This document shows, one piece after another, positions 7,201 to 46,854 of a stretch of 64,000 nt of DNA. Position numbers and translations under genes: made by a program. The notes beneath the pieces are model-generated. The model did no database searches. It saw only the letters and a list, made by a program, of their open reading frames with translations, and was not told where the DNA came from. How positions within the stretch are numbered: position 1 is the stretch's first letter; every line of letters begins with the position of its first letter. This DNA comes from Mixia osmundae IAM 14324 (lineage: Eukaryota; Basidiomycota; Mixiomycetes; Mixiales; Mixiaceae). Location of the stretch: NCBI RefSeq assembly GCF_000708205.1, contig NW_014575561.1:318299-382298 (forward strand), given 5' to 3'.

Positions 7201-8412
7201 GAAAGATGAACGGTTTCCGCTCTGTGATCTTGTTCTTCTCGTCGAACTCGCCTTGCTTTTCTTTGGGCGCACCCGTACAGTTGGAAGAGTGATGGCCGGG
7301 CTGGCCACATCGATGGCAGCCCCGGGGCTTTCGATCTTGTGCAAACACATCTTCTCGTAGCACTTTGAAGTAAGGCTCATGCGTTGCCAGTGAAAGCATG
7401 ATGAGATCGGCATCCTGTCAGATGATGCACGCTCAGCCAACGAAGAAGATTTCATGACCCAGCACGACTGACCAAGCCATAGATGACGTGGCGCGTGTTG
7501 GGATCGTAGCCCGCGTGACTTCTTTGCCTTCTGATATAATCCATGATCTTGTGCTCGCCTTCACCGGGAACGGAAGCGTCTGAGATGACGACTTGGAGCT
7601 GATGGCCATGTCATCAGCATCATGTTGCATAGCGTAAGTAGAAAGTACCTTTGACCAGCCTGGATCACTGTTGAGCTTGCTTGCGACCCAATACCGCAGT
7701 GAAGCGGCTAGCAGGTCCATGAAGGGTGTGCCGGGCGTGATAGCATTCTGATCCCAGGCCTTTTTGTCTTTGTACTCGTCGCTGACTTCCTTGCCCATGG
7801 CTATGCGTTTCAAAGCGTCAGCACAGCAAGCAAGCAATTTTACAGAGTAGCGACGCGCCTTCCCATTCTCTGATGGCTGCCTCTTTCTCTTCCGCCTTTG
7901 TCTTTGCTTCCTGAGACGCTCTGAAGCGACGACTACGCTGCTGATTCATCTTGGCTCGTGGAGCGACACCATCTGTGATGGAGGAACCGGTTCAGCTGGT
8001 GTCGAGCTGGAGGCAATCCTTGCAGACCTATGGCAATGAGAAGCAACTTGCGAGGTCTGATCATGTTGACGACACGCTCAGTGTAGGCGAAGATCTCTAC
8101 CATCATGTCTGCCTCCGTCTCTGGAGGCGGCTTGCCTTCTGGATGAGTACAAGGATGGACGATGCCGTTCATGTCGAGATAGAGACAATCGAACTCTTCC
8201 CCGTTCGGATTGGGCAGAGACATATCCACCGGTATCTCTACATCCTCTCCGCCCCCATCTGGGTCATCCTCACTGCCTGGCAAAGGCTGGCCAGTGACAG
8301 GATCGAGACGAGAAGCGCCAGGCTGAGCTTTGGTCGGCAGATCTTCCTTGACCGATGTGACGATATGAGGGTATTTCTTGCTCAGCCATCGAAACAGCGC
8401 TGGCACACCCAT
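4273..8412 (-). CDS. RAT1: RAT1/XRN2 nuclear 5'-3' exoribonuclease
   Basis: Starts [15 protein letters not shown] at 8412, the RAT1/XRN N-terminus. Exon 1 (8412-8028) joins exon 2 at 7972 to read [20 protein letters not shown]. Further pieces give [38 protein letters not shown], the CCHC zinc knuckle [14 protein letters not shown], and [15 protein letters not shown]. The conserved nuclease tail ([21 protein letters not shown]) follows a long acidic, Ala/Ser-rich insert. The knuckle and length favour the nuclear RAT1 over cytoplasmic XRN1. The enzyme degrades RNA in rRNA maturation and in transcription termination. The last ~230 residues are a Gln/Tyr/Asn-rich tail with YGQQ-type repeats. The intron at 7801-7858 uses a GC donor (AAG|GCGCGT). 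At least five introns. Divergent from MsrB (159 bp). Confidence 0.93.
4730..4990 (-). repeat. Low-complexity Gln/Tyr repeat tract coding the RAT1 tail
   Basis: On the minus strand this codes tandem variants of a PxYGQQ unit ([22 protein letters not shown] is typical in style) preceded by runs of [10 protein letters not shown]. The DNA is a degenerate repeat of tacggncagcag-like units, so it is imperfect at nucleotide level but clear at protein level. Composition (Q, Y, N, P, G) is that of prion-like or phase-separating domains. The mirror reading frames on the plus strand (Leu-rich) are shadows. Confidence 0.85.
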
Positions 8413-15715: not shown

Positions 15716-18699
15716 TCAGATCTCTTCGTCTTCGATCTCTACAAAGTTGAGCGGCATGAATTGTGTTCCCGAACCGCCATAATGCTTTCCGTTAGATTCG
15801 ACCCTGCACTTCTGTGAGCATCGACTAAACCGAGGAAATAGACTGCACGCACCAGTGAAGTCGTAAAGCGTGCAGGAAGGCGGATAGGCCTTCCATGACG
15901 ACGAGGATCGCCACAGAGAGAGCGAACCAAGCGGCAAACATGAAGACGACAGCAAAGACGCCCAGAGGTCCTTCAAAACTGAACGAGTTCTTGATCGTCA
16001 TCGTCCATAAGACTTCCGATAGCTGAGCATGAGCCAGCGAAAGTGCCCACAGCCGAAGGTACGAGGCCGTGTTGGAGATACAGCCCAAGCAGAACTCGAT
16101 CGTATGAATGACTTGCTCAATCATGATCTCGCCCACTTGGAATTCTTCCTCGTGCTCCTCGCCGCCTTCACCACCTGCGTTACCATCCTCTGCATCCGCG
16201 TCATCCTCCGAATTGCGAGGACCGCTGACGTGCTCGTAGCCTTGAGCCTTGATCGCTTGATGCTTCTTATACATGATGTAGGGCTTCATAAGCAGCATCC
16301 AGGGTACGCAAACGAGCGCGAGTAGGATGAGCACGACTTGTACGAAGCCTTGTCCGGCGTAGAGCTGTTCGGAAGGATCGACAGTGCCAGGTGACAGAAA
16401 CATGTAGATGAGCATATTGAGAAGATCGGGCGGCTTTGTGCTTGCTTTGGACCAATCTGTAGCCCATTTGTACAAAACGGTAAGAACGAGGTAGCCAAAG
16501 ATGGACTCCATGAAGAGGATCTGGGGTAGCCAGACCGCAGTGATGAGGTATCGCTTGCCAAAGTGGATGAAGTTGGGTACTTGCAGACAGATTGCAAATG
16601 ACATGTGGATGACGCCGAGAATGATAGACATCTTCATCTTGAGCGAATTTGTAAAGATGAGTGCGTTGTCTGCGCCGTGCCATGCAGGATCGAGTCCGAA
16701 AGGATAGACCGTTCCCGTAGATTCGGCAGTGACGCTCTCGCCAGCTGGAAAAGACCAACCCGACTTGCCGATAACGAGAGACAGCGAGAAGATATCATTG
16801 TATATCAAGCCGGTGTACATGGCGAAGAGCTGAGATCAATTCATCAGCTTTGGCGTATAACGATGAAATCTCGACATACACCCATGAGCAAGATGATGTA
16901 ACGACCAAAGTAAGCGGTATCGAAGATCTCATTGCCCGTGCCTTTGCCAATCTTCTTTTCGTAGAAGATCATAGCAGCAGCAGACATGGCCATGATGAAG
17001 CCGTGTCCGATATCGCCAAACATGACGGCAAAGAGGAAAGGAAAAGTAATGACTGCGAAGATGCCGGGATTGATCTCTTGGTAGTCCGCAATGCCGTAAG
17101 CGTCAATGATCGCCTGGAATCCTTCCGTGACTTTGTTCGTCCGATGGAATGTCGGCGGATTCTTCGCGTTCCGTAATTCGTGAAGAATCGGAGGAACCGA
17201 AGAGCCAGCGTTTGTCTGCCGAGTGATGTCAGCAGGGACGAGACCAGCTATTGAAGGGATATACAGTAGCGCGTCGAAGAGCCATCTGGACGTTTCCGAT
17301 ATCTCGCGTAGGCACCCAGCCTTCCGCAATGAGAGTCCTTCTGCCGCGATCATACTGGAACAGGTTCATCGTATGGTACGTCGCCTTTTCCTTCCTGACA
17401 ACTTGCCACCAAGCCGAGATCGTCTCAGCCGTCTTGCTGAGTTCACCTTTCCGCGTGGCACTTGTGTTGTGCAGCACGGCAGAAAGGTCTTCGAGTCTGC
17501 TAGAGACCTCTCTGAGAGCGTTGTTGCGTTTTTCGGAGTCCGAGTCGACCGGGTACAGCGTTCCTCCCATGGATTCCGAGATCTTCCTGATCTTATCGAG
17601 CAGTTCTCTGCCGTGCCCGAAGATGATAAAGACGTTCTTGCGCAGATCGTTCTTGCCGCCACTCTTGCCTGGCTTGGAGAAAGGCTCTTGAATCTCCTGC
17701 AGGTGAGAGAGAGAGAGGGTCAGCGGATCCTACGACTCAGCTTGTGTGAACTTACTGCAAAATTCATGTAGAGATTGCCACGGAGGACACGCCAGAGAAC
17801 GCGCTCGAAAGTAGCCATCCGACTGCGCTCGATCGTACCCGCAACGAAGCTACCAAGCGTGTGATGAGCGGCCAAACGTGACATCGCAAGCGTGGACGTA
17901 CTCAAGGTCTACGCTGGCATAGCCATCGCCATCGCCTTGTTCCATCTGGTGATCGAGCAAGGGTGCGCTGGGCTCATCGAACGAGGCTCTGATGTCGTCC
18001 GTCTGGCTTTGCGCCTGCGTGTACCGTTGACCGCTCAGCTTTTGTTTCTAGGAAGCCAAGGGCAGTCGACACTTGCCTGACTGAAGAAGACGGCGGTCTC
18101 CCTCAGGACGTGGCGCGCTTCTTCCAACTCCATCGTTCTCTTCTGCAAAGTCTCTTGGGACTCGTTCATCTCGCTCATCCTGTTCTCTCTCTCGGCGAGA
18201 ATGGTCTCTAACTCGCTGACGAGCTGGAGCGAGTTTCTGCCTTGCACGAGATGCATCGTCTCTGTGAGTGGACGGATGTAGATCTCGCTCTCGTGAATCT
18301 GAGCGGTGAGGAAACGGAGTCGTCGTTCCATCTCATCGAGTCGGCGGATCTCTGAGACGTAGGTCCGTTGGAAGGGATTGACATCGGGATTGAGCTACAA
18401 AAGTGAGGATCAGGCACGATTAGCGCGATATCGACGACCAGAGACGAGAAGGGGCGTACATCCTTGAACTCCACCCGTCCCAGTTCGCCGAGCTCTGTCA
18501 AACATGCCAAAGTTTGAGCGGAGTCTCTCAAAGACCATCAATGCTGACCCTGGACAGTGTGGTGAGCTACATCGCTGGGGATGTAGAGCTGCACCAAGCT
18601 CATTTCCTCGCTCCCTGTTGATAGCGAGAGCTCGTCAGGACAGGATCGACACTGCGCATGAGATCACTGACTGAGGAGCGAGGGGTACTCGGACGTCAT
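15716..18699 (-). CDS. VPH1: V-type proton ATPase subunit a (VPH1/STV1)
   Basis: Exon 1 codes [22 protein letters not shown], the family N-terminus; later exons give [12 protein letters not shown], a coiled coil ([20 protein letters not shown]), [36 protein letters not shown], and [19 protein letters not shown]. The C-terminal membrane half has [18 protein letters not shown], which carries the arginine essential for proton passage through the c-ring. A short last exon ([20 protein letters not shown]) completes the protein at 15716. Subunit a sits in the membrane sector of the vacuolar/Golgi proton pump. An acidic loop ([20 protein letters not shown]) separates spans, as in other fungi. The start is 96 bp from the divergent eIF3l start. 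Confidence 0.94.
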
Positions 18700-41500: not shown

Positions 41501-42333
41501 CGGTCTGAATGCGGCGATAGATCGCCTGATACCCAAAGCAGATCAGAACCTTGCAGGCATTTCTGTCGATAGCGCTTTACAGGGAGCGGCCAATGCTATC
41601 ATGGCAGCTTCTCGCAAGCTACAAGAACTGATGTCTCGTTCGCGAGATGGCACGCAATTCTCTGCATCAGAGATCAAAGTCCACGATGATATCCTGGCGG
41701 CCGCTCTAGCAATCACAGCTGCTATTGCTGAGCTCATCCGACGAGCTACAGCGTCTCAGAAGGAGATCGTCGCTCAAGGGCGCGGATCGAGCTCTGCGCA
41801 AGCCTTCTACAAAGCCAATTCGCGCTGGACAGAGGGTCTCATCAGCGCCGCGCGAGCAGTAGCAGACTCCACCACATTGCTCATTCGGACGTCTGATGGC
41901 TTGATCCAAGGCACGGCATCCCTGGAGGAAGTCATCGTTGCCTCCAACGAAGTGGCGGCTGCAACGGCACAACTCGTCGCCGCTTCTCGCGTCAAGGCAG
42001 ACTTGCGTTCGCCCACTCAACTCGCGCTCGAGCAAGCTGCACGAGCTGTCACTGACGCATGTAAGGCGCTCGTCAGGCAAGTCAGAGCTATCACTGCCGC
42101 CCAAGGGCAAGCGCGCGGCCTAGGAAATCTGACCTCCATGGAAGGCAAGTCTGCCTGCTTGCCCTCGCTGACTTTTCTGACAAGTTTTGCATGTGGTAGA
42201 TCACTCCTTCAAGACCCTCTATTTCAATACACAAGTTGATATCGCGAAACTTGAGCGAGAGATCGCAGAGAAGAGGCGGCAACTTGGCGAAATACGTAGA
42301 GAGGATTACCGCCGTGCGCCGCCAGAGATTTGA
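38595..42333 (+). CDS. SLA2: SLA2/HIP1R-type endocytic adaptor (ANTH, coiled coil, I/LWEQ)
   Basis: The ANTH domain reads SLNIKKACSPEETAPKAKHVR joined (intron 38852-38904) to KCIVYTWDYHSSQSIW, TFKALIVVHKVLQEGH, and ILHKLKFHKNHREFNGLFEYEEYISL. A long coiled coil follows (EFEDKKREQERLQRQREEEA; ELATIGQNVQAQLM; TEHLDMLSRYKQMQLKANS). The C-terminal actin-binding I/LWEQ (THATCH) module runs from about 41550 (AASRKLQELMSRSRDG, FYKANSRWTEGLISAARAVA) to NTQVDIAKLEREIAEKRRQL and stop 42331-42333. It links clathrin coats and PIP2 membranes to actin in endocytosis. The last intron (42145-42199) has a GC donor, AAG|GCAAGT. The exact start is uncertain; 38595 is a candidate consistent with phase. Confidence 0.88.
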
Positions 42334-46194: not shown

Positions 46195-46711
46195 TTCAAT
46201 CGCGGCAGGGGTAGTATATAACAAGATACATATTGTACATCGTGCTCAGCAAGGTCGCCTCCGTGTTGTCGCTGTCGAATATAAGTAGCACGAGCCACTC
46301 GTGCTAGATATGACTATCGGAAGGTAGACGGACGGTGCCCGACCTACATGATCTCTGTCGTGTCGCGAGCCCTCCCGCTGACTTTGTAAGACTTTGTAAG
46401 GGTGAATGAGGCGTAGCATTTCGCGATCTGAGGATCGCCACACTGTGCGAGAATCGATGACTGAGATATGCGAAGAGAGAGTCCAAAGTAGATGCCGGCG
46501 GGTACATCAGGGGGACTGCTCCCGCACCGGCAACTTCCGGCAGCCTTCAGCAGGGAGGCCACCCCCTGTCAGGACTGCCACGTTGACAGCAGACCAGCAC
46601 GCGCACTATGGCAGGACTTGGGAAGCTGCATCCGGAAGGGAAACGATGAACAGATATTTTGTGCAACGTTGAAGATATATATATATCTTGTTTAGAGTGA
46701 CGCCTTAGTTC
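46195..46711. other. Intergenic region upstream of tRNA-Leu
   Basis: 517 bp with no supported protein gene. It holds a short direct repeat (gactttgtaa twice, at about 46379-46400) and the TATA-like run described next. Open frames here are short and lack homology. Confidence 0.5.
46675..46686 (+). promoter_or_regulatory. TATA-like (AT)6 element upstream of tRNA-Leu
   Basis: Six AT units within a perfect dyad (agatatatatatatct) lie 26-37 bp before the first base of the tRNA. Upstream TATA elements at this distance help Pol III transcription of tRNA genes in some fungi, such as fission yeast. Function here is inferred from position only. Confidence 0.45.
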
Positions 46712-46845
46712 GCTTGTGTGTCCGAGGGGTTAAGCAAGTGAATCCTTTTACATCGAGTGAACCCGACTAATCAGCTTAACACAGGGAGTTGGCCTTAAGA
46801 TCCAATGACCGCAGGGTCTCAGGCGTTCGAATCGCCTCGCAAGCA
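46712..46845 (+). tRNA. tRNA-Leu(UAA) with a 51-nt insertion in the D-loop
   Basis: Acceptor 5' strand GCTTGTG (46712-46718) pairs with CGCAAGC (46838-46844), discriminator A46845. D-stem TCC (46721-46723) pairs with GGA (46785-46787). Anticodon arm 46789-46805 has loop CTTAAGA with anticodon TAA (46796-46798); its only flaw is a C-T closing mismatch. Variable arm GACC/GGTC (46807-46818) makes it class II. T-arm AGGCG-TTCGAAT-CGCCT (46821-46837) keeps a good B box, and box A (TGTCCGAGGGG) is intact. A TTTTT terminator follows at 46850-46854. Between D-loop base 46733 and G46785 lie 51 extra bases. Without them the RNA is 83 nt, normal for tRNA-Leu. No intron sits at the usual 37/38 site. Confidence 0.85.
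46734..46784 (+). other. Intron-like insertion in the tRNA-Leu D-loop
   Basis: The 51-nt insert starts GCAAGT, has GACTAAT (46765-46771) 13 nt before its 3' end, and ends ACAG. These are the donor, branch-like and acceptor signals of the GC-AG introns in nearby protein genes; the CLC intron at 42739-42786 has the same GCAAGT and GACTAAT. Its ends are ambiguous by one base, because a G can be assigned to either side. A 7-bp complementarity (gttaagc 46729-46735 with gcttaac 46774-46780) spans the 5' junction. Confidence 0.75.
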
Positions 46846-46849
46846 ATTC

Positions 46850-46854
46850 TTTTT
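46850..46854 (+). terminator. RNA polymerase III terminator (T5)
   Basis: A run of five T begins five bases after the tRNA-Leu discriminator base, the usual place for Pol III termination. Confidence 0.75.

Follow-up and report, generated by a model that had tools for sequence, protein, structure and literature searches.

The tRNA-Leu(UAA) gene of the fungus Mixia osmundae is split by a 51-nt insert that resembles the mRNA introns of the same organism in its length, its ends and a branch-site-like motif. The best reading, to which we give a probability of roughly 0.8, is that this insert and similar ones in three further tRNA genes are U2-type spliceosomal introns residing in tRNA precursors made by Pol III, in parallel to the intron of the fission-yeast U6 gene. 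That the inserts in all four genes are introns of one kind or another is very highly probable. An earlier note on this stretch of DNA had offered two alternatives, the first being that the tRNA precursor contains an intron of spliceosomal type. This first alternative is now strongly favoured: inserts of similar length that begin with GC or GT, end with AG and include a branch-like motif are present in three further tRNA genes, for which searches found no second copy.

The term “window” designates the whole stretch of 64,000 nucleotides that was analyzed, and positions given without a prefix refer to it. The tRNA-Leu(UAA) gene occupies positions 46712-46845 of the forward strand. The gene and its surroundings consist of the following features:

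46675..46686, + strand: AT run (ATATATATATAT), seen in the sequence 26-37 bp upstream of the tRNA gene
46712..46733, + strand: exon 1, comprising the 5' strand of the acceptor stem, nt 8-9, the 5' strand of the D stem and the D loop through nt 22
46719..46729, + strand: box A (TGTCCGAGGGG), with T for G at nt 10, unbroken in the DNA and lying wholly 5' of the intron
46734..46784, + strand: intron of 51 nt, GC-AG, judged by its signals to be of U2 type
46734..46739, + strand: 5' splice site GCAAGT; the identical hexamer occurs in 2 of the 25 mRNA introns described below
46767..46771, + strand: branch-site-like CTAAT, its A at 46770, 14 nt from the 3' end of the intron
46782..46784, + strand: 3' splice site CAG
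46785..46845, + strand: exon 2, comprising the 3' strand of the D stem, the anticodon, variable and T arms, the 3' strand of the acceptor stem and the discriminator A
46796-46798, + strand: anticodon TAA, within exon 2
46825..46833, + strand: box B (GTTCGAATC), intact
46850..46854, + strand: T5, the Pol III terminator

The coordinates and the sequence of the insert given in the earlier note proved correct: ARAGORN calls the 83-nt form lacking 46734-46784 Leu(TAA) and finds no tRNA in the unspliced form. A scan of the 64-kb window at the Rfam gathering threshold gave no match, the Leu(UAA) gene included. Three other details of the note needed adjustment. All arms do pair once the insert is removed, with the exception of one pair: the anticodon stem of the spliced form has four of its five pairs, C31.U39 being a mismatch according to ARAGORN. 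The spliced elongator tRNA-Met of the same genome has a U.U mismatch at what is, in our numbering, the equivalent position, so the leucine mismatch is no mark of decay. Box A, box B, the AT run and the T5 terminator, which had been described as intact, are all present, but nt 10 in box A is T, whereas it is G in all four other Leu genes. The D stem compensates for this, since pair 10-25 is T-A in Leu(UAA) versus G-C in the other four. Judged by the sequence, T10-A25 is a compensatory change whose two bases lie on opposite sides of the intron. Finally, the insert had been placed in the D loop; it is indeed in the D arm, but when the gene is numbered like the other Leu genes, the exact site is between nt 22 and 23, at the border of the D loop and the D stem.

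The other interrupted genes were found in the rest of the genome (13.51 Mb in 19 contigs). Reading for tRNA genes covered approximately 305 kb, namely the window and 84 loci (240,993 bases with overlaps). The loci were chosen using an Rfam tRNA search and T-arm patterns, from the matches listed, and the resulting tRNA set is thus incomplete and biased to findable genes. Three genes of the set have inserts comparable to that of Leu(UAA):

C5:816290-816414, - strand: tRNA-Arg(UCU), with an insert of 51 nt, GCAAGT..CAG, at 53/54
C9:106295-106423, + strand: tRNA-Lys(UUU), with an insert of 55 nt, GTACGT..CAG, at 60/61; the gene end was obtained by arithmetic
C1:2140490-2140622, - strand: tRNA-Pro(AGG), with an insert of 49 nt, GTGAGC..TAG, at 52/53

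ARAGORN calls the spliced forms Arg(TCT), Lys(TTT) and Pro(AGG). Removal of the insert restores the cloverleaf in all four genes, with a single mismatch in Leu (31-39) and in Lys (A4.C69), which suggests that the spliced products would be functional tRNAs. None of the inserts is at the canonical position 37/38: they lie at 22/23 (Leu), 53/54 (Arg), 60/61 (Lys) and 52/53 (Pro). Besides its 49-nt GT-AG insert in the T stem, tRNA-Pro(AGG) has a second intron of 12 nt in the anticodon loop, at 37/38. A pattern for D-arm introns matched three places versus six in the reversed control, one of the three being the Leu gene of the window, and thus indicated no further case.

That the leucine insert stays in the tRNA, as an extension of the D arm ending in a hairpin, is very unlikely. 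Such retention could not apply to Arg, Lys and Pro, whose inserts break the T stem or the T loop. In the predicted fold of the Leu precursor the acceptor, D, anticodon, variable and T arms are indeed all present, and the insert contains a 7-bp helix. This helix is formed by a 7-nt inverted repeat, GTTAAGC at 46729-46735 (+), across the 5' junction, pairing with GCTTAAC at 46774-46780. However, the fold is no better than those of shuffled sequences (z = -0.76; 45 of 200 shuffles fold equally well or better), and a comparable inverted repeat is present in 617 of 20000 shuffled Leu inserts. Lys(UUU) has a different 7-nt repeat, which pairs the 5' junction with exon 2; the repeats of Arg and Pro do not exceed 5 nt.

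The signals required by Pol III are in place in the host genes as far as the sequence tells: box A and box B, T5 in Leu and T runs in the others, so that T runs follow all four genes. The AT run at 46675-46686 may be a TATA-like upstream element of Pol III. In Leu, Arg and Pro neither box A nor the 9-letter box B core is interrupted. Only a few bases separate the 3' end of box A from the start of the Leu intron. The introns of Arg and Pro have their terminal AG directly before (G)TTCGA, and the DNA still reads GTTCGAATC and GTTCGACTC. The Lys intron starts directly after GTTCGAGT, so that of the nine letters of the box B core just the final one differs in the DNA. These four cases suggest that introns adjoining the boxes, rather than within them, may be the only kind that a Pol III gene can bear.

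The inserts were compared with introns of protein-coding genes of the window. The sample comes from three public Mixia proteins (predicted gene models) that were aligned, with splicing, exactly to the window; they are identical to its translation at 828 of 828, 1077 of 1077 and 1271 of 1271 residues. We take these proteins to be V-ATPase a, RAT1 and SLA2, going by Pfam and the source records; their genes contribute 9, 6 and 10 introns, respectively. For V-ATPase a, a translation joined from window exons at about 15.8-18.7 kb is 97% identical to a protein of M. osmundae IAM 14324. Joining of open frames was also tried as a route to mRNA introns and was rejected in favour of the exact protein alignment, having given no excess of GT or GC donors. 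The 25 introns are 46-65 nt long (median 54); 22 of them are GT-AG and three are GC-AG, all three located by exact protein alignment:

18015-18076, - strand: GC-AG mRNA intron
7801-7858, - strand: GC-AG mRNA intron
42145-42199, + strand: GC-AG mRNA intron

Thus the remark of the earlier note that the insert has the signals of GC-AG introns in nearby protein genes is borne out by 3 of the 25 introns. The usual share of GC-AG introns is about 1%, and 3/25 in the three window genes is high for a fungus.

The lengths of the four tRNA inserts (49, 51, 51 and 55 nt) fall within the range of the mRNA introns. Their 5' ends, GCAAGT in Leu and Arg, GTACGT in Lys and GTGAGC in Pro, all fit the host consensus, and their 3' ends are AG. 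Each insert also contains the motif [CT]TRAY, taken on the motif alone, 14-24 nt from its end: CTAAT at 14 nt in Leu, CTGAT at 16 nt in Arg, TTAAC at 14 nt in Lys and CTAAT at 24 nt in Pro. By our count the same motif occurs 11-30 nt from the end in 15 of the 25 mRNA introns; because the other ten lack it, the branch site is no sharp criterion. The features were combined in an intron score, consisting of splice-site scores derived from the 25 mRNA introns and a hand-set score for the branch site. The tRNA inserts score 17.8-20.9, and the mRNA introns, each left out in turn, score 11.6-21.8 (median 16.3). For comparison, 200000 random segments, matched in length and allowed the same boundary freedom, were drawn from the window and therefore include real introns; as high a score was reached by 12 of them for Leu, 0 for Lys, 45 for Arg and 21 for Pro. 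The intron-like signals of the Leu insert are thus more than chance.

The boundaries of the inserts were considered independently of the splice signals. In a deletion scan, each deletion of 30-80 nt was scored by its tRNA fit only. The best-fitting product of Lys can arise by one cut, which is GT..AG; that of Arg by three equivalent cuts, one of them GC..AG; and that of Pro by four equivalent cuts, one of them GT..AG. For Leu the GC..AG product scores 85, the best product (cut AA..AG) scores 86, and several others are level at 85. Since the tRNA fit leaves the Leu cut unfixed, the boundary was placed with two other guides, the splice signals and the D arm as it is in the remaining four Leu genes. 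The fit scores of the four spliced genes (84-94) are like those of 19 of 20 other tRNAs (82-94). The remaining one is the initiator Met, which scores 30, as its length is unsuited to the layout, and 75 with one extra base.

A splice-and-scan search with the real motif gave 17 junction-spanning calls. Twelve rows are the four genes, with the Pro(AGG) locus present in four overlapping copies and also miscut; the other five are edge cases at intact genes (the Leu(AAG) locus L030 twice, L001, L011 and L015). With four control motifs the numbers of calls were 0, 6, 0 and 1; these calls fall at L029 (Pro) and its copies, L011, L016 (Arg) and L030, and are alternative cuts close to real genes. A looser version of the search did not discriminate (54 calls with GY..AG versus 41, 51, 23 and 92 with the controls), so deletion scans and intron scoring were used instead.

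The main competitor of the spliceosomal reading is that the inserts are introns cut by the tRNA splicing endonuclease, with subsequent ligation, at non-standard sites, their GY..AG ends being a coincidence or a shared signal. We consider this improbable. It would fit the known occurrence of non-canonical D- and T-arm introns in cryptophyte nucleomorphs, Cyanidioschyzon merolae (C. merolae) and archaea: according to excerpts of PMC4090602 and PMC3978253, sites 22/23 and 53/54 are exactly on the archaeal list, and 59/60 is used in archaea and red algae. The Pro precursor could form the central 4-bp helix of a bulge-helix-bulge (4 of 4 pairs), the helix in the Leu precursor draws the junctions together, and the 5' junction of Lys could pair with exon 2. 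However, the full helix-bulge-helix-bulge-helix is formed by none of the four at cuts that give the right product. Three canonical introns that were tried also fail the strict archaeal form at their own cuts, and in the absence of a good positive control this test is therefore of limited power. Under this reading, GY..AG ends, a branch-like motif and the length of an mRNA intron would not be expected in four cases out of four. The canonical introns of this genome, when measured, look different.

We recognized 26 tRNA genes, each for another isoacceptor, with initiator and elongator Met counted separately: 21 called by ARAGORN, Val(AAC) and the four with an insert outside the anticodon loop. 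An intron at 37/38 is present in 20 of the 26, namely in 16 genes where it was measured and in Leu(AAG), Met, Val and Pro. The 16 measured introns are 9-28 nt long, and only one has GY..AG ends even if one base of slack is allowed. The Met intron, placed by hand, has 32 nt and starts with GC, and its end is not AG. Canonical introns, that of the Pro gene included, likewise reside in tRNA precursors made by Pol III, and they differ from the inserts in position, length and ends. The earlier note had named inserts in other tRNAs with no intron-like ends as evidence against its idea; all four inserts outside the anticodon loop have such ends.

It could also be supposed that the interrupted genes are decayed or broken copies without a function. 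According to an excerpt of PMC4090602, a eukaryotic tRNA gene with an insertion in the D or T arm is mostly a single member of a large synonymous set and is regarded as a pseudogene, and the mismatches C31.U39 in Leu and A4.C69 in Lys could be read in the same way. However, a synonymous copy was found for none of the four genes. The earlier note had pointed out that an intact tRNA-Leu(UAA) elsewhere would mean a decayed copy here; it was looked for by BLAST and by a Leu pattern, and none was found. BLAST searches of the genome with each spliced tRNA returned its own exons only (the short 3' exon of Lys was not reported), with one first-pass candidate each. A pattern of the Leu D arm and UAA anticodon with up to three mismatches matched exactly four genes, those of the other leucine tRNAs: Leu(CAA), Leu(UAG), Leu(AAG) and Leu(CAG). 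The control gave 0 matches. Such searches for copies of the four genes could miss a strongly diverged one. A fungus is expected to have five leucine isoacceptors, and the gene of the window completes this set. With no second copies found and all five leucine tRNAs accounted for once the window gene is counted, the interrupted genes have the appearance of working genes. Apart from the mismatches their stems are preserved, including the compensatory T10-A25 pair, and the corresponding codons are in use: among the 3176 codons of the three window genes there are 10 TTA, 52 AAA, 34 AGA and 99 CCT or CCC. By ordinary wobble rules, the decoding of UUA needs a UAA anticodon, and the interrupted gene is apparently the sole one for that tRNA. 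Decay is thus a most improbable explanation.

Returning to spliceosomal removal, we infer the following course of events for Leu(UAA). Pol III, directed by boxes A and B, would transcribe the gene as far as the T5 terminator, giving a precursor with a 51-nt U2-type GC-AG intron between nt 22 and 23. U1 and U6 would read GCAAGU, and U2 would read CUAAU, as they would for the mRNA introns of 46-65 nt. The predicted 7-bp helix of the precursor would mask the 5' splice site in part and would have to open for U1. The exons would then join as UUAA to GGAG, restoring the D arm. The same removal would take place in tRNA-Arg(UCU), tRNA-Lys(UUU) and tRNA-Pro(AGG). To judge by the sequence signals, the spliceosome is the probable agent in all four precursors. 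We also find it fairly likely that spliceosomal introns have colonized Mixia tRNA genes as a class, settling beside the Pol III boxes and leaving the promoter working. The decoding of UUA, AAA, AGA and CCU/CCC would then be spliceosome-dependent, and Pro(AGG) would need two unrelated splicing machines.

Among the closest known systems is the fission-yeast U6 snRNA gene, which has an mRNA-type intron in a small Pol III RNA; the intron lies near the catalytic nucleotides and is attributed to reverse splicing (an excerpt of PMC10484740, citing Tani and Ohshima 1989, 1991). Both systems place a spliceosomal-type intron in a structural RNA made by Pol III; in Mixia the hosts are four tRNA genes, with the introns in the D and T arms. 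For the chemistry, U6 offers a genuine precedent, and the Mixia inserts would belong with it among mRNA-type introns in Pol III RNAs. In Mixia itself a U6 search gave one match above the cut-off (47 of 731 candidates scored), C14:256502-256610 (+). It spans 109 nt for 105 model positions, and therefore has no such intron. This match lies approximately 1.5 kb from tRNA-Leu(UAG) (C14:258145-258236).

The D- and T-arm tRNA introns of C. merolae and archaea rest on a bulge-helix-bulge and the tRNA endonuclease. In the Guillardia nucleomorph such introns have lengths of 3-24 nt, and many of them lack a defined bulge-helix-bulge. In the excerpts of PMC4090602 and PMC3978253 these introns occupy the same or nearby positions as the Mixia inserts, but none is described there as GT-AG or GC-AG with a branch site. 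The U2-type mRNA introns of Mixia share length, 5' splice site, branch-like motif and 3' AG with the tRNA inserts; their hosts are mRNAs made by Pol II, whereas the hosts of the inserts are tRNAs with an internal promoter. Among the papers listed by searches of the open PMC library, in which subscription journals are largely missing, none describes spliceosomal introns within tRNA genes, judged by title and the start of the abstract. A 2026 review treats tRNA splicing as separate from the spliceosome (PMC13149111). The title of the Mixia genome paper, as it stands in the reference list of PMC7181583, presents the species as a fern pathogen.

Should the inserts be spliced in the way their appearance suggests, the line that separates tRNA splicing from the spliceosome would be crossed in essential genes. 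Several codons would need the spliceosome for their translation, and it would act on short, folded Pol III transcripts, as it does with fission-yeast U6. Because insertions into a tRNA can be accommodated at only a few sites and the promoter is internal, such genes would also provide a natural test of how introns enter genes.

Genes interrupted in this way escape tRNA finders. ARAGORN misses all four when set to permit anticodon-loop introns of up to 120 nt. With the Rfam tRNA model, Arg is above the cut-off and Lys below it, and Leu and Pro are not among the matches listed (63 of 180 candidates scored). This genome search gave at least 18 matches (at least 19 at E up to 10) and missed real genes. 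Two unspliced calls of ARAGORN were rejected. Locus L030, which it called a second Leu(UAA) with its intron in place, is Leu(AAG) by the Leu register and by ARAGORN after splicing; L080, called SeC(tca), is Met(cat) once spliced. The tRNA-Val(AAC) gene (locus L038, 866-953, - strand) has no ARAGORN call and is not among the Rfam genome matches listed; it was found by covariance model and by eye. It contains a short anticodon-loop intron and lies near tRNA-Arg(ACG).
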